From NCBI GenBank assembly GCA_937899645.1, contig CALCCD010000088.1, positions 1 to 43,650 on the forward strand: 43,650 nucleotides of DNA. Direction: 5' to 3'. Both the position numbers and the translations under genes were made by a program. Below the pieces are notes generated by a model. It was not told where the DNA came from. It did not search any database and worked only from the letters and a program-made list of their open reading frames with translations. The stretch comes from an uncultured cyanobacterium (GTDB lineage Bacteria; Cyanobacteriota; Cyanobacteriia; Cyanobacteriales; Geitlerinemataceae). Of the stretch, positions 26,940 through 31,352 are shown piece by piece; the first letter of the stretch is position 1, and each line of letters starts with the position of its first letter.

Positions 26940-27899
26940 ATGTGGAACAGGAAAAATAGAAAAAAACTAAGAGAGTCTTTGCTAGAGGGATTTAAGACTT
27001 ATAGCGCCTTGAAAATTTTCCTGTCTGATGAACTCGATATAAGTCTGGAAAGTCTTGCCTCAGAGTCCGACGGACTGGAAGTTGCTACGTTCAGATTGAT
27101 AGAGAGTGCCATAGCTCAAGGCTTTGCAGACCAACTTTACGTCTGTTTCTGTGAATCGAGACCACACCTACGCTTTGATTTAGTTGAAAATCTTGACTCA
27201 GGCAAGCGTGAAGCAAATCTTCAAGATAGATTAGGTCTACTCTTGATGAAGGTATTTTCTAATATACCTTTTGCAAAAAGGAGGCGAAAGATGATCTATT
27301 TCAAACTAGAGGGCAAGCTAGAAGAGACACAGATCAATAATGCAATTCTCAGAAAATGGGAAGAAGAGTTACGGGAAATATCGGGAGACTTCAGCATTAA
27401 AATTGTCGAGGTTGAAGAAGGAAGCATAAAGCTCAAACTGAGCATATCCCCTGAAGGCTTAGAAGCGCTTAAAGAGGCTATACAATCAGGTTTGCTCACG
27501 CAAATTGGAGGAATACCTATTTCTGATTCAGAGACCATTTCTGACGCAAGGATCAGTTCATACCATGGGGCAGATGAGGATGATATTGATGCAGGTCGTA
27601 TGAGGGAAATTCGTTCAGTAAAACGTCTACTGACACAGTCGAGACTAGGGGAACGTAAGCTTAAATCATCTAATCTAGACGTTCTAGTATTGCCGCATGA
27701 GTTGGTAGATACGAATCTTCAGAAGTATGCCATAAGTGAATTCAAACCACCCTCACCGCCGCTGGCGAAAGAACCACCCAGATGGCCAGTGATAATCTTC
27801 TTTCTTCTTTTGATTTTTGCCATTCCAAACGTTTCTATTTCAATCTCATTTAGAGAGAGGTGTGTTGGCAGTCTCTGCGCGCTAATTCCTGAGGAGTAA
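26940..27899 (+). CDS. EAD1 (effector-associated domain 1) protein with C-terminal membrane helix
   Basis: A 319-residue protein in visibly AT-rich DNA without any CGATCG core. Residues of about 8-76 match the EAD1 pattern: LRESLLEGFKTYSALKIFL, then a Leu-rich turn, then VATFRLIESAIAQGFADQLYVC. EAD1 is an adaptor domain defined in multi-component bacterial conflict systems, where it brings an effector to NTP-dependent or protease components; this is established for the family by comparative genomics. Residues of about 115-195 form a second alpha/beta unit (IYFKLEG, IVEVEEGSIKLKLSISPEGLEALKEAIQSGLL). I have seen this EEGS-strand pattern next to such adaptors but cannot name it. A transmembrane helix lies at about 280-300 (WPVIIFFLLLIFAIPNV). 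No ATPase or protease partner is adjacent. It was probably acquired by transfer. Confidence 0.65.
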   Translation: MWNRKNRKKLRESLLEGFKTYSALKIFLSDELDISLESLASESDGLEVATFRLIESAIAQGFADQLYVCFCESRPHLRFDLVENLDSGKREANLQDRLGLLLMKVFSNIPFAKRRRKMIYFKLEGKLEETQINNAILRKWEEELREISGDFSIKIVEVEEGSIKLKLSISPEGLEALKEAIQSGLLTQIGGIPISDSETISDARISSYHGADEDDIDAGRMREIRSVKRLLTQSRLGERKLKSSNLDVLVLPHELVDTNLQKYAISEFKPPSPPLAKEPPRWPVIIFFLLLIFAIPNVSISISFRERCVGSLCALIPEE

Positions 27900-28366: not shown

Positions 28367-29236
28367 CTACGTCACCGCCCGATCTCCGCGACTCAAAATC
28401 CAGGCAAACGCACCACTCGTCACAAACATCAGCAAACTATAAATCGCCGCCGGAATTGCCATCGTCGGCTCGTTCAGCAGCGTACTCGCCACCGCGATCG
28501 CCAGTGTCCCGTTCTGGATGCCCACCTCCACCGAAATCGACTTTGCGCTCGCGTCCGACAGCCGCGCGACCTGCGCCAACCCGTAGCCCAGCCCCATCGC
28601 CAGCAGATTCAGCGCCAGCGTCACCGCGCCCACCTGTGCGAAAAATCCCGGCAGATTCTCTCGCTCTTTCGCCAGCAGTCCGACAATAATCAGCCCCAAA
28701 AACGCCAGCGACAGCCACTTGACACTCTTCTCGATGCGCGCCGCCAGCTCGGGCGCGAAATGATAGACGGTCATTCCCAGCGCGACCGGCACGATCGTAA
28801 TCGCGGCAATCTGCACCACCGTCGTTCCAAAAGGCAGCTCCAGCGCTACCGCAGTCCCGGCGAACTGCTGCGTTGCGAAGTTGACGATCAGGGGAATCGT
28901 GAACACCGTCACAAGGCTGCTGATGGCCGTGAGGCTAATCGAGAGCGCCACGTTGCCTCGAATGAGATAGACGATCGAGTTGGAGGTCGGCCCGCCGGGA
29001 CAAGCTGCGAGAATCATCACCCCGATCGCCAGCTCCGGCGACAGCGGAAACACCTGCGCCAACAAAAATCCGAGGATTGGCAAAACGACGAGCTGCGCCC
29101 CTAGCCCCAAGAGCATCGCTTTCGGCTCGACCCAAACCCTTAGAAAATCGCGCGGCGTCAAGCCCAGCCCCATCCCGAACATGATGACGAACAGCGCCAG
29201 CGGCAAAAACACCGCCGTTAAAAAATTGGACTCCAT
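28367..29236 (-). CDS. Bile acid:sodium symporter (BASS) family transporter
   Basis: A 289-residue membrane protein with nine to ten hydrophobic helices. The two crossover motifs of the family are visible: ACPGGPTSNSIVYLIRGNVALS and EVGIQNGTLAIAVAS, which hold the sodium ions and substrate in this fold. Relatives carry bicarbonate, pyruvate, other organic acids or bile acids with Na+; the substrate cannot be told from sequence. GAGAGGG lies just upstream of the ATG at 29236. It is divergent from the LRAT-like gene. Confidence 0.9.
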   Translation of the reverse strand: MESNFLTAVFLPLALFVIMFGMGLGLTPRDFLRVWVEPKAMLLGLGAQLVVLPILGFLLAQVFPLSPELAIGVMILAACPGGPTSNSIVYLIRGNVALSISLTAISSLVTVFTIPLIVNFATQQFAGTAVALELPFGTTVVQIAAITIVPVALGMTVYHFAPELAARIEKSVKWLSLAFLGLIIVGLLAKERENLPGFFAQVGAVTLALNLLAMGLGYGLAQVARLSDASAKSISVEVGIQNGTLAIAVASTLLNEPTMAIPAAIYSLLMFVTSGAFAWILSRGDRAVT

Positions 29237-29430
29237 AAACCCTCTCGCCCCTCACGTGGGAAATCTCGGCAACATGCAACAGATTACGGCGCGATCGTGT
29301 GGCAATTCCCACCAATAAGGTCGCATTACGCCAATCTCTCTCTGAAGGCGAAGCCGATAGGATGGGGCTGTCTGCTGCGCGATCGAGATGCTCCCGATCG
29401 CTCGAATCGCATCTGTCACCCACTGCGACT

Positions 29431-30111
29431 ATGGCCTACGGCGATCAAATCTACGTAACCCGCCCCTTCTTGGAAATGGAGGGCATCTACGAACACCACG
29501 GCATCGACTGCGGTGACGGCACGGTGATTCACTATTCCAAACGCCCGGAAGAGGCGACCGTCCTGCAAACCTCGATCGAGGCATTCGCCCAGGGTCGGAC
29601 GATCCAGACGCGCGACTATGCCACCAGCTACATCGCCGACAGCGTCGTCAGCCGGGCCCGCAGCCGCATCGACGAGCGCAAATACAACCTGCTGTTCAAC
29701 AACTGCGAGCATTTCGCCACCTGGTGCAAAACCGGCGTCAGCTCCAGCCGCCAGGTGCGCGAGTTTGCGCCGATCGTCGCCAATATGCAGCCGGAGAGCG
29801 TCGAGCGCGAAGTCTTCCAGTCGCTGCAAGGCAAACCGGGCGCGGCGCAACTGCTTGAAGGGGCGCTGGCCGATATCAAGCTCTCCTGGGACGAGCTGCA
29901 GCCGCAATATAACGAAGCCGTCCGCGAGCTGAGTGCCTGGGAGGCAGTGGCGCAGAAGGCCGTGGCCTCGGGGCGCGACGATCTGGCGCGGGCGGCGCTG
30001 CACAAGAAGCGAACGAACCGGAAGAAGGCCGAACGCCTCAAGCCCCAGCTCGATCGCCTTGCGGAACTGACGGAAAAACTCGTGCGCGATCGCGGCCAAC
30101 TGCTTCGCTAA
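29431..30111 (+). CDS. LRAT-like (NlpC/P60-superfamily) protein fused to a PspA/Vipp1-like helical hairpin
   Basis: A 226-residue protein starting at the ATG at 29431 (the frame is open upstream but lacks family features). Residues 1-100 are an LRAT domain: DQIYVTRP, YEHHGIDCGDGTVIHYS with catalytic His22 and second His34, and NNCEHFATWC with Cys92. LRAT enzymes form a thioester on that Cys and transfer or remove acyl chains of phospholipids. Residues of about 160-226 closely follow the PspA/IM30 pattern: WEAVAQKAVASGRDDLARAAL, then charged repeats and LKPQLDRLAELTEKL. That region in PspA/Vipp1 is the helical hairpin of an ESCRT-III-like membrane-remodelling protein. The fusion suggests an acyl-chain enzyme targeted to stressed membranes; this is inference. 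Confidence 0.8.
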   Translation: MAYGDQIYVTRPFLEMEGIYEHHGIDCGDGTVIHYSKRPEEATVLQTSIEAFAQGRTIQTRDYATSYIADSVVSRARSRIDERKYNLLFNNCEHFATWCKTGVSSSRQVREFAPIVANMQPESVEREVFQSLQGKPGAAQLLEGALADIKLSWDELQPQYNEAVRELSAWEAVAQKAVASGRDDLARAALHKKRTNRKKAERLKPQLDRLAELTEKLVRDRGQLLR

Positions 30112-30194
30112 ACGATCGCATTCGATCTCTGTAAATCGGGCTAGTCTGGGTGAGGGGCAGCGCCCCGCTGTCGCACTTCATATCGGTAAACGCC

Positions 30195-31352
30195 TTGACT
30201 TCCACGACCGCCGCCGCAGTTGCCGTCCCGTTCGTCGATTTCGCGCCCATGCACGACCCGCTCGAAGCAGAGTTCGCAGCGGCGATCGCCCGCGTCCTGG
30301 AGCGCGGCGACTTCATCCTCGGGAAGGACGTGCGCGAGTTCGAGGCGGCGTTTGCGGAGGCCACCGGTGTCGCCCACGGCGTCGGGGTGGCAAGCGGCAC
30401 GGACGCGATCGCCCTCGGTCTGCAAGCTTGCGGCGTCGAGGCGGGCGACGAGGTCATCGTCCCGGCGAACACGTTCATCGCCACGGTCATCGGCGCGATC
30501 CATGCGGGTGCGAGGCCGGTGCTGGTGGACTGCGACCTGGCAACGGGGCTAATCGACCTGGACGCAGCCGAAGCGGCCATCACTCCGAAAACGAAGGCGA
30601 TCGTGCCGGTGCATCTTTACGGTCAAGTCGTCTCGCCGCGCCGTTTGCTGGAGATTTCCGAGCGCCACGGCGTCACGATCTTTGAAGATGCGGCGCAAGC
30701 GCACCTGGCCGATCGCGACGGCTACACGGCGGGCACGATCGGCAAAGCCGCCGCCTACAGCTTCTACCCTGCGAAAAATCTGGGTGCGTTCGGCAACGGC
30801 GGGATCGTCCTGACCCGCGACTCCGCCGTCGCCGACAAGGTTCGCAGCCTGCGGAACTACGGCGCGCCGAAGAAATATCTCCACGTCGAGCATGGAACTA
30901 ACAGCCGCCTCGATACGATTCAGGCTGCGATCCTCAACGTTAAGCTGCCGCACCTGCGGGAGTGGAACCGCGATCGCAACGCCTGCGCCGCCGAGTACGA
31001 TCGGCTCCTCGCACCCTTAGCCGATCGCGGCATCGTCCCGATGCGCAACGACAGCGGCGGCGGCCACATCTACCATCTCTACGTCCTGCACCTGAGCGAT
31101 CGCGCACCCCTCGATCGCGACGCCCTCGCCAGCGCCCTCCAAGAGCGCAACATTTCCACGGGCATTCACTACCCGATCCCCTGTCACCGCCAGCCGGGAT
31201 ACCTCGATCTCGGCTACCCGGAAGGTGCGTTCCCGAACGCCGAAGCACTGTGCGGCGAAATTCTATCGCTGCCGATGTTTCCCGGACTGGGGCTCGATCG
31301 CGTCGAAACCGTCTGCACCGCGATCGAGGAAATCATCGCGACCTGCGGCTAG
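30195..31352 (+). CDS. DegT/DnrJ/EryC1/StrS sugar aminotransferase
   Basis: A 385-residue PLP enzyme that transaminates a keto-sugar nucleotide, usually for surface polysaccharides. It opens with VPFVDFAPMHDPLEAEF and ILGKDVREFEAAFA, the family N-terminus. ASGTDAI binds the cofactor phosphate, EDAAQAH carries Asp165, and SFYPAKNLGAFGNGG carries the PLP Lys194. The start is uncertain: TTG at 30195 fits family length, while GTG at 30150 would add 15 residues. The next gene, an exosortase, lies 166 bases downstream on the same strand; exosortase systems are generally linked to exopolysaccharide. Confidence 0.93.
   Translation: MTSTTAAAVAVPFVDFAPMHDPLEAEFAAAIARVLERGDFILGKDVREFEAAFAEATGVAHGVGVASGTDAIALGLQACGVEAGDEVIVPANTFIATVIGAIHAGARPVLVDCDLATGLIDLDAAEAAITPKTKAIVPVHLYGQVVSPRRLLEISERHGVTIFEDAAQAHLADRDGYTAGTIGKAAAYSFYPAKNLGAFGNGGIVLTRDSAVADKVRSLRNYGAPKKYLHVEHGTNSRLDTIQAAILNVKLPHLREWNRDRNACAAEYDRLLAPLADRGIVPMRNDSGGGHIYHLYVLHLSDRAPLDRDALASALQERNISTGIHYPIPCHRQPGYLDLGYPEGAFPNAEALCGEILSLPMFPGLGLDRVETVCTAIEEIIATCG

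Follow-up and report, generated by a model that had tools for sequence, protein, structure and literature searches.

A cyanobacterial LRAT-like enzyme carries a truncated PspA/Vipp1-type hairpin conserved at its tip

The window, the whole stretch of 43,650 nucleotides of cyanobacterial DNA analysed here, encodes a protein in which an LRAT enzyme domain is joined to a piece of the bacterial ESCRT-III proteins PspA/Vipp1. Judging from its sequence, the tail of this protein is a hairpin fragment that has retained the tip and not the stem, and this is what our study adds. The LRAT domain, its catalytic residues, the homology of the hairpin, its truncation and the conservation of the tip alone are features of the sequence or of the structural model. 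We propose, with a probability of roughly 0.4, that an LRAT/PLAAT-like lipid acyl enzyme is docked through its ESCRT-III hairpin tip on Vipp1/PspA, on the membrane, or on both. The features concerned are as follows.

29431..30111, + strand: LRAT-PspA hairpin fusion gene, an ORF of 226 aa plus stop; the start is backed by the starts of relatives
29437..29742, + strand: LRAT domain, residues 3-104 (Pfam PF04970, E 1.9e-24; model residues 1-104 on PLAAT3 4dot)
29494..29496, + strand: His22, presumed catalytic, equivalent to the first conserved His of PLAAT3 (74/74 sequences; PLAAT3 alignment)
29530..29532, + strand: His34, presumed catalytic, equivalent to the second conserved His of PLAAT3 (74/74 sequences; PLAAT3 alignment)
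29704..29706, + strand: Cys92, presumed nucleophile, in the motif NCEHF (74/74 sequences; PLAAT3 alignment)
29743..29841, + strand: linker, residues 105-137, with two short helices that are poorly predicted (block pLDDT about 62-71) and without a transmembrane segment
29842..30108, + strand: helical hairpin of PspA/Vipp1 type, residues 138-226, with helices at 138-179 and 183-219; it aligns without gaps to Vipp1 39-127 of this genome
29938..30009, + strand: conserved hairpin tip, residues 170-193, W...A..AL...REDLARAAL..K (10/12 tip against 1/21 stem positions kept)

The open reading frame was observed exactly where the first-pass annotation had placed it, at 29431-30111 on the + strand, with 226 aa plus a stop. 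The ATG at 29431 is preferred to a GTG at 29299 because most relatives begin with MARGDQ or the like. On one side the gene adjoins a gene of the bile-acid-symporter family on the opposite strand, and on the other a DegT/DnrJ aminotransferase gene followed by an exosortase gene; a scan of 29100-30400 for promoters and terminators found none. The genome holds one LRAT gene, one clear Vipp1 gene and, elsewhere, one weak PspA_IM30 match below the cut-off. When one genome per species was scanned, 456 stretches were obtained, 413 of them encoding a relative, and the best 80 were retained. These 80 and the window make up 81 loci, among which no conserved gene neighbourhood was found: the most widely shared neighbour family occurs in 11/81, within flanks of up to 6 kb that were often shorter. 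Upstream in the window, a further gene (26940-27899, +) encodes a TRADD-like N-terminal domain (E 2.2e-11) and, by eye, a hydrophobic stretch near the C-terminus.

What kind of enzyme might this be? The PF04970 score of the window protein is 86.7 bits, above the cut-off of 24.3. His22, His34 and Cys92, which the first-pass annotation had named as the full LRAT catalytic set, lie at the positions claimed and are invariant in 74/74 aligned sequences, the window protein included; this set consists of hairpin-bearing representatives of 172, with tails of at least 112 residues, and a hit with the LRAT profile was required for admission. The model of the enzyme part aligns with PLAAT3 4dot over 95 residues (Z 13.5, rmsd 1.8) and with 7zom over 97 (Z 13.5, rmsd 2.1), and both by sequence profile and by model its nearest solved structures are PLAAT phospholipases/acyltransferases. 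We infer that the fusion protein, with its LRAT/PLAAT fold, is an enzyme with a predicted acyl activity on membrane lipids. Could the domain instead belong with the thiol peptidases or amidases of the broader NlpC/P60 group? LRAT-like proteins are listed as one of four NlpC/P60 families in a review (PMC6403190), and the window protein has weak Pfam matches to the RTE1-like and PPPDE peptidase families, both below their cut-offs. However, the nearest solved structures are the PLAAT lipid enzymes just named, and the fusion to a fragment of a membrane protein, together with the hydrophobic stretches found in relatives, points to membrane substrates, so that we regard a peptidase or amidase as very unlikely. 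In the structure search, the best Foldseek match of the whole model was chain E7 of 8iuf, a subunit of the Euglena respiratory supercomplex that perhaps has an LRAT-like fold with helices. We treat it as no more than a lead: the match (E 3.3e-4, Z 12.8) has an rmsd of 9.5, there is no sequence match at E <= 1, and the words LRAT, acyltransferase, phospholipase and H-rev107 are all absent from the main text of the 8iuf paper.

Behind the LRAT domain no transmembrane anchor was found, the highest hydropathy over 19 residues being 0.38, and the tail is instead a true homologue of PspA/Vipp1, as the first-pass annotation had claimed. First, Pfam matches residues 142-217 of the window protein to positions 42-117 of the 220 in the PspA_IM30 profile (PF04012, E 1e-7); the score of 32.3 bits is just below the cut-off of 33.9 bits, and there are relatives above it (e.g., in genomes G036, G050 and G027). 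Second, the profile comparison that the annotation had suggested gave a significant match: hhalign of 51 tails against 45 Vipp1/PspA sequences returned a probability of 98.3 and E 1.6e-14, as against 0.045 with the Vipp1 side reversed, 0.029 with the tail reversed and 0.53 with the LRAT part. The pattern is retained in the orthologues, since 51/51 aligned sequences, drawn from the 81 loci with near-copies and cut genes excluded, match both Pfam families at E <= 0.001. With the 74 tails, the profile-profile comparison gave E 4.9e-17 over 90 columns without a gap. Third, the tail shares 27/89 identities with the Vipp1 of the same genome over Vipp1 residues 39-127, again without gaps, and W170 aligns with Vipp1 W71. 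Finally, a sequence search of solved structures returned Vipp1 8qbr (residues 133-223 on 35-124, E 2e-6) together with human PLAAT enzymes. The homology thus stands; the length of 65 residues given in the annotation does not, and about 75-90 residues (138 or 153 to 226) are involved. AlphaFold2 models the hairpin block with a pLDDT of 78-98 over residues 141-220 and of 97-98 over 161-200. For the whole model the pLDDT is 85.0 and the pTM 0.54, and because of this pTM the placement of the hairpin relative to the enzyme is unreliable. Structure matches of the hairpin to Snf7, CHMP1B, chemoreceptors and LSD1 (Z 9-11) were set aside as evidence, because helical pairs reach such scores by their arrangement.

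How much of Vipp1 has been kept in this tail? Alpha0, alpha4, alpha5 and alpha6 are missing, as the limits of the profile match and the end of the tail at Vipp1 127 indicate, and the LRAT domain and linker occupy the place of the amphipathic helix alpha0. The positions conserved in Vipp1/PspA are kept by the LRAT tails at 10/12 sites in the tip and at 1/21 in the stem (Fisher 7e-6; the p-values for the tip are descriptive, the sequences being related and the boundary having been drawn after the conservation pattern was seen, and three boundary choices agree). Here the tip is residues 160-195 (Vipp1 61-96), a position is conserved if it is so in at least 80% of the 45 Vipp1/PspA sequences, and it is kept if the same residue is equally conserved in the tails. 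At thresholds of 70% and 90% the counts are 11/16 against 3/26 and 6/11 against 0/14; measured against the 30 Vipp1-type sequences alone they are 11/16 and 1/20, and after removal of one duplicate Vipp1/PspA gene (L134, L162) 10/12 and 1/20. Full-length proteins have no such tip bias. The 15 PspA-type sequences compared with the 30 Vipp1-type sequences keep 11/16 tip and 17/20 stem positions (11/16 and 16/19 without the duplicate gene), and seven deep-branching compared with 23 cyanobacterial Vipp1-type sequences keep 11/22 and 15/29 (the same without the duplicate). Per sequence, the LRAT tails (n=74) keep on average 82% of the tip residues and 18% of the stem residues, whereas Vipp1/PspA keep 96% and 92%; the window protein by itself keeps 9/12 and 5/21. 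Within the 74 tails, columns conserved at 80% or more number 16/36 in 160-195, and 2/22 and 3/31 in the flanks.

These observations bear on what the hairpin could do. Vipp1 lacking alpha5 and alpha6 has been reported to form neither rings nor filaments (PMC8281802). Because alpha4-alpha5 is missing from the fusion protein and removal of alpha5/alpha6 abolishes the Vipp1 assemblies, Vipp1-type polymerisation of the fusion protein is not expected. In Vipp1 polymers, the helix alpha5 of a neighbour is described as docking across the hairpin tip (PMC8281802, PMC11919738), and since the tip that receives alpha5 is the part retained, recruitment of the fusion enzyme to Vipp1/PspA assemblies, which the first-pass annotation had raised, is plausible. 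Conservation of the tip alone is the pattern expected of an alpha5 acceptor that is not itself packed into a filament, and, less specifically, of a turn with demanding folding. Indeed, the tip might be conserved for the folding of the turn, which would speak against docking, although in the full-length paralogues the stem is conserved too. That a genome also holds Vipp1 says nothing for docking, because Vipp1 is found in genomes without the fusion as well, and the gene neighbourhood lends docking no support either. Helical hairpins frequently pair, and the hairpin taken alone is modelled with confidence, so that its role might simply be to dimerise the protein as a coiled coil or to stabilise its fold, thereby holding the LRAT active site in shape. 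The stem, which would be the pairing surface, is however the least conserved part and the tip the most conserved, and we consider this explanation improbable.

According to the docking model, Cys92 would remove an acyl chain from a glycerolipid with the aid of His22 and His34, and water, another lipid or an amine would then receive it. The truncated Vipp1/PspA hairpin would substitute for the transmembrane anchor found at the C-terminus of animal PLAATs; through its tip the enzyme would dock on assemblies of Vipp1 (or PspA), accepting their alpha5 without polymerising itself, perhaps with the hairpin also in contact with the membrane, and acyl chemistry might thereby be delivered at the sites of these assemblies. 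A role in membrane stress or at damaged membrane may follow from such recruitment. As a conserved enzyme into which a piece of the Vipp1 hairpin is built, the fusion protein is a direct candidate for linking lipid acyl chemistry with bacterial ESCRT-III, and the residues to target are singled out by the conservation of the tip alone.

Might the hairpin act as a membrane-binding anchor alone, replacing the PLAAT transmembrane helix, with no contact to Vipp1/PspA? The isolated alpha1-3 hairpin of IM30 is reported to bind anionic membrane in vitro, and labelled IM30 fragments to have bound the cyanobacterial cytoplasmic membrane only with the hairpin present and exposed (PMC12636044). The tail of the window protein has a net charge of +4, equal to that of the matching Vipp1 segment; across 51 tails, however, the mean is +2.5 and the range -3 to +8, which weakens an electrostatic attachment to the membrane, and electrostatic binding would not require a conserved tip motif. 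The tails of the LRAT proteins bear on the same question. In a set of 218 unique LRAT ORFs, which is skewed toward relatives of the window protein, 176 have the hairpin only, 15 a hydrophobic stretch only and three both, as if the two were interchangeable, but by our thresholds 24 have neither, so that the exchange is not strict. Of the 176 hairpin-only ORFs, 174 match a Vipp1/PspA profile built without LRAT tails. The 24 with neither comprise 14 from one family of small genomes (f24, presumably picocyanobacteria), with a half-hydrophobic stretch (0.66-1.32), and 10 with short or different tails. A strict rule of hairpin or transmembrane anchor, which our first set had suggested, was therefore abandoned for a tendency: hairpin and hydrophobic anchor mostly replace one another, as they should if each serves to take the enzyme to the membrane. 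On balance, we regard anchoring without any Vipp1/PspA contact as rather unlikely. For docking on Vipp1, the same data mean that it is dispensable in some lineages, since the LRAT proteins of f24 (21 genomes) have no recognisable hairpin, and the three ORFs with both hydrophobic stretch and hairpin also speak against its being needed in every lineage. Four LRAT proteins (L120, L121, L122 and L124) were seen to carry a long Gly/Ala-rich hydrophobic tail in the hairpin's place.

The fusion is conserved and probably old. When 194 genomes were drawn evenly from the phylum, the full fusion was present in 31 (in two of them the match reads through an internal stop), and two more genomes have LRAT, hydrophobic stretch and hairpin; on our reading of the table, all 33 belong to the window's class, which contributes 92 genomes (33/92), with 0/102 elsewhere in the phylum. 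Matches that take in Vipp1 hits were seen in 92/194 genomes, a tally separate from the 92 genomes of the class. This survey, proposed by the first-pass annotation, does not bear out its description of the fusion as unexpected: it is widespread in cyanobacteria, and such a fusion was in print in 2024 (PMC11237479). An LRAT gene is present in 157/289 genomes of the class. The LRAT gene was fetched from 138 genomes, a part of those with an LRAT match in the 194-genome draw and the 289-genome class scan, and 105 of these have the hairpin, 13 only the hydrophobic stretch and 20 neither; f24 accounts for 21 of the 33 hairpin-less genomes. In a tree of the LRAT domain, all 78 hairpin-bearing rows cluster with f24 in a group of 101 rows (SH-aLRT 96) that is separate from eight other LRAT genes, and the presence or absence of the hairpin requires four changes; this was a quick tree of 109 rows and 101 columns, in which 55/106 forks are open, two long branches are flagged and some short-tailed ORFs were omitted. 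The simplest reading is that the fusion arose once, early on, and that f24 later lost its recognisable hairpin; the tree is too weak to serve as proof of it. The tails of f24 were also considered as worn-down hairpins, an idea that we dropped because the reversed control (0.0022) scores at least as well as their match to the 74 tails (E 0.0086); against the three ORFs with stretch plus hairpin they give E 7.3e-8, the shared hydrophobic stretch included.

Several individual loci deserve mention. Decayed copies of the LRAT fusion with many stops occur in two small genomes (L135 in G177 and L136 in G141), and the gene of a genus-mate (G137) is intact. Between two genomes of the family f20, L130 has the hairpin and L257 diverges soon past 'LLVTET' in a frameshift-like manner, possibly through a sequencing error. 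The fusion was also found in records titled Gracilibacteria and Chloroflexaceae (L041, L049), which are probably misbinned cyanobacterial contigs.

Truncated hairpins of this kind are found in other proteins as well. The protein P0003 (L117:969-1769, -; relatives L276-L284) begins with a Vipp1-like alpha0, which is followed by a hydrophobic stretch of ~120 residues rich in Gly/Ala and then by a PspA hairpin; it is without LRAT and without alpha4-alpha5, and PspA_IM30 is its sole Pfam family. Its hairpin matches the LRAT-fusion profile at 6.4e-21, and three full PspA/Vipp1-type ORFs do so more weakly, at 2.9e-10 to 2.9e-12. Relatives occur in 9/117 genomes of its family, P0003 itself included (E <= 3.3e-66; two with a stop inside the match). 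It is conceivable, though we think it doubtful, that truncated ESCRT-III hairpins are a general cyanobacterial adaptor, in which non-polymerising alpha5 acceptors with the tip only tie an LRAT enzyme or the Gly/Ala-rich membrane segments of P0003-type proteins to Vipp1/PspA polymers. If this were true, lipid acyl remodelling would be delivered to Vipp1/PspA polymers, or would cap them. As separate observations, all three pairings of LRAT, Gly-rich stretch and hairpin were seen (L120/L121/L122/L124, P0003 and the window gene), and a 388-aa ORF (L118) encodes an almost complete PspA/Vipp1 in which a Gly-rich hydrophobic insert separates alpha0 from alpha1. An ORF of ~580-600 aa (L277:1-1152, L296-L300) lies near some P0003-type genes and has the Gly-rich stretch in common with them; by eye, its L277 part has WD40-like repeats and a J-domain-like end. 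At G030:C37:64449-65129 (inside L299), one 289-aa frame contains two PspA_IM30 hairpin matches and may encode a tandem hairpin protein.

How does the window protein compare with known systems? We found no paper on the LRAT proteins of cyanobacteria in the open-licence PMC literature. Cyanobacteria are not known to contain phosphatidylcholine. A 2024 survey of PSP proteins names a PspA_IM30-NlpC/P60 fusion (example AFZ52345.1) and predicts a lipid-modifying role for it (PMC11237479); it resembles the window protein in having the same two modules in one protein, so that, by this account, the architecture is not new and was already in print. The two very probably belong to the same family, because the LRAT-like proteins are a branch of NlpC/P60 and because the substrate predicted in the survey, phosphatidylcholine (lecithin), points to LRAT. 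The survey's text on this fusion, as far as it was available to us, is without its distribution, the truncation of the hairpin or the conservation of the tip alone. Cyanobacterial thylakoid membranes are described as consisting mainly of MGDG, DGDG, SQDG and PG (PMC5897459), and since these are the thylakoid lipids, PG, SQDG or a galactolipid would be a more likely substrate than phosphatidylcholine, the sole published guess, against which our analysis therefore speaks.

The animal PLAAT (HRASLS) enzymes, such as PLAAT3, share with the window protein the fold, the two His and the Cys, and the NCEHF motif, and in both a C-terminal membrane-targeting part, predicted in the case of the window protein, stands behind the enzyme domain. 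In PLAATs this part is a putative transmembrane domain, whereas in the window protein a soluble ESCRT-III hairpin takes its place. PLAAT3 has been reported to be recruited by membrane damage (PMC9338259), and the window protein may offer a bacterial parallel to the PLAAT enzymes that go to damaged organelles. With Vipp1/IM30 and PspA the tail has in common the alpha1 + alpha2/3 hairpin, a gapless register and the tip motif; unlike the tail, those proteins have alpha0, alpha4, alpha5, alpha6 and a conserved stem. The P0003-type proteins resemble the tail in their truncated hairpin, which retains the tip (10/12 of the positions conserved in Vipp1/PspA) and mostly not the stem (7/21), and differ from the window protein in that the Gly/Ala-rich hydrophobic stretch of ~120 residues stands in place of the LRAT domain.
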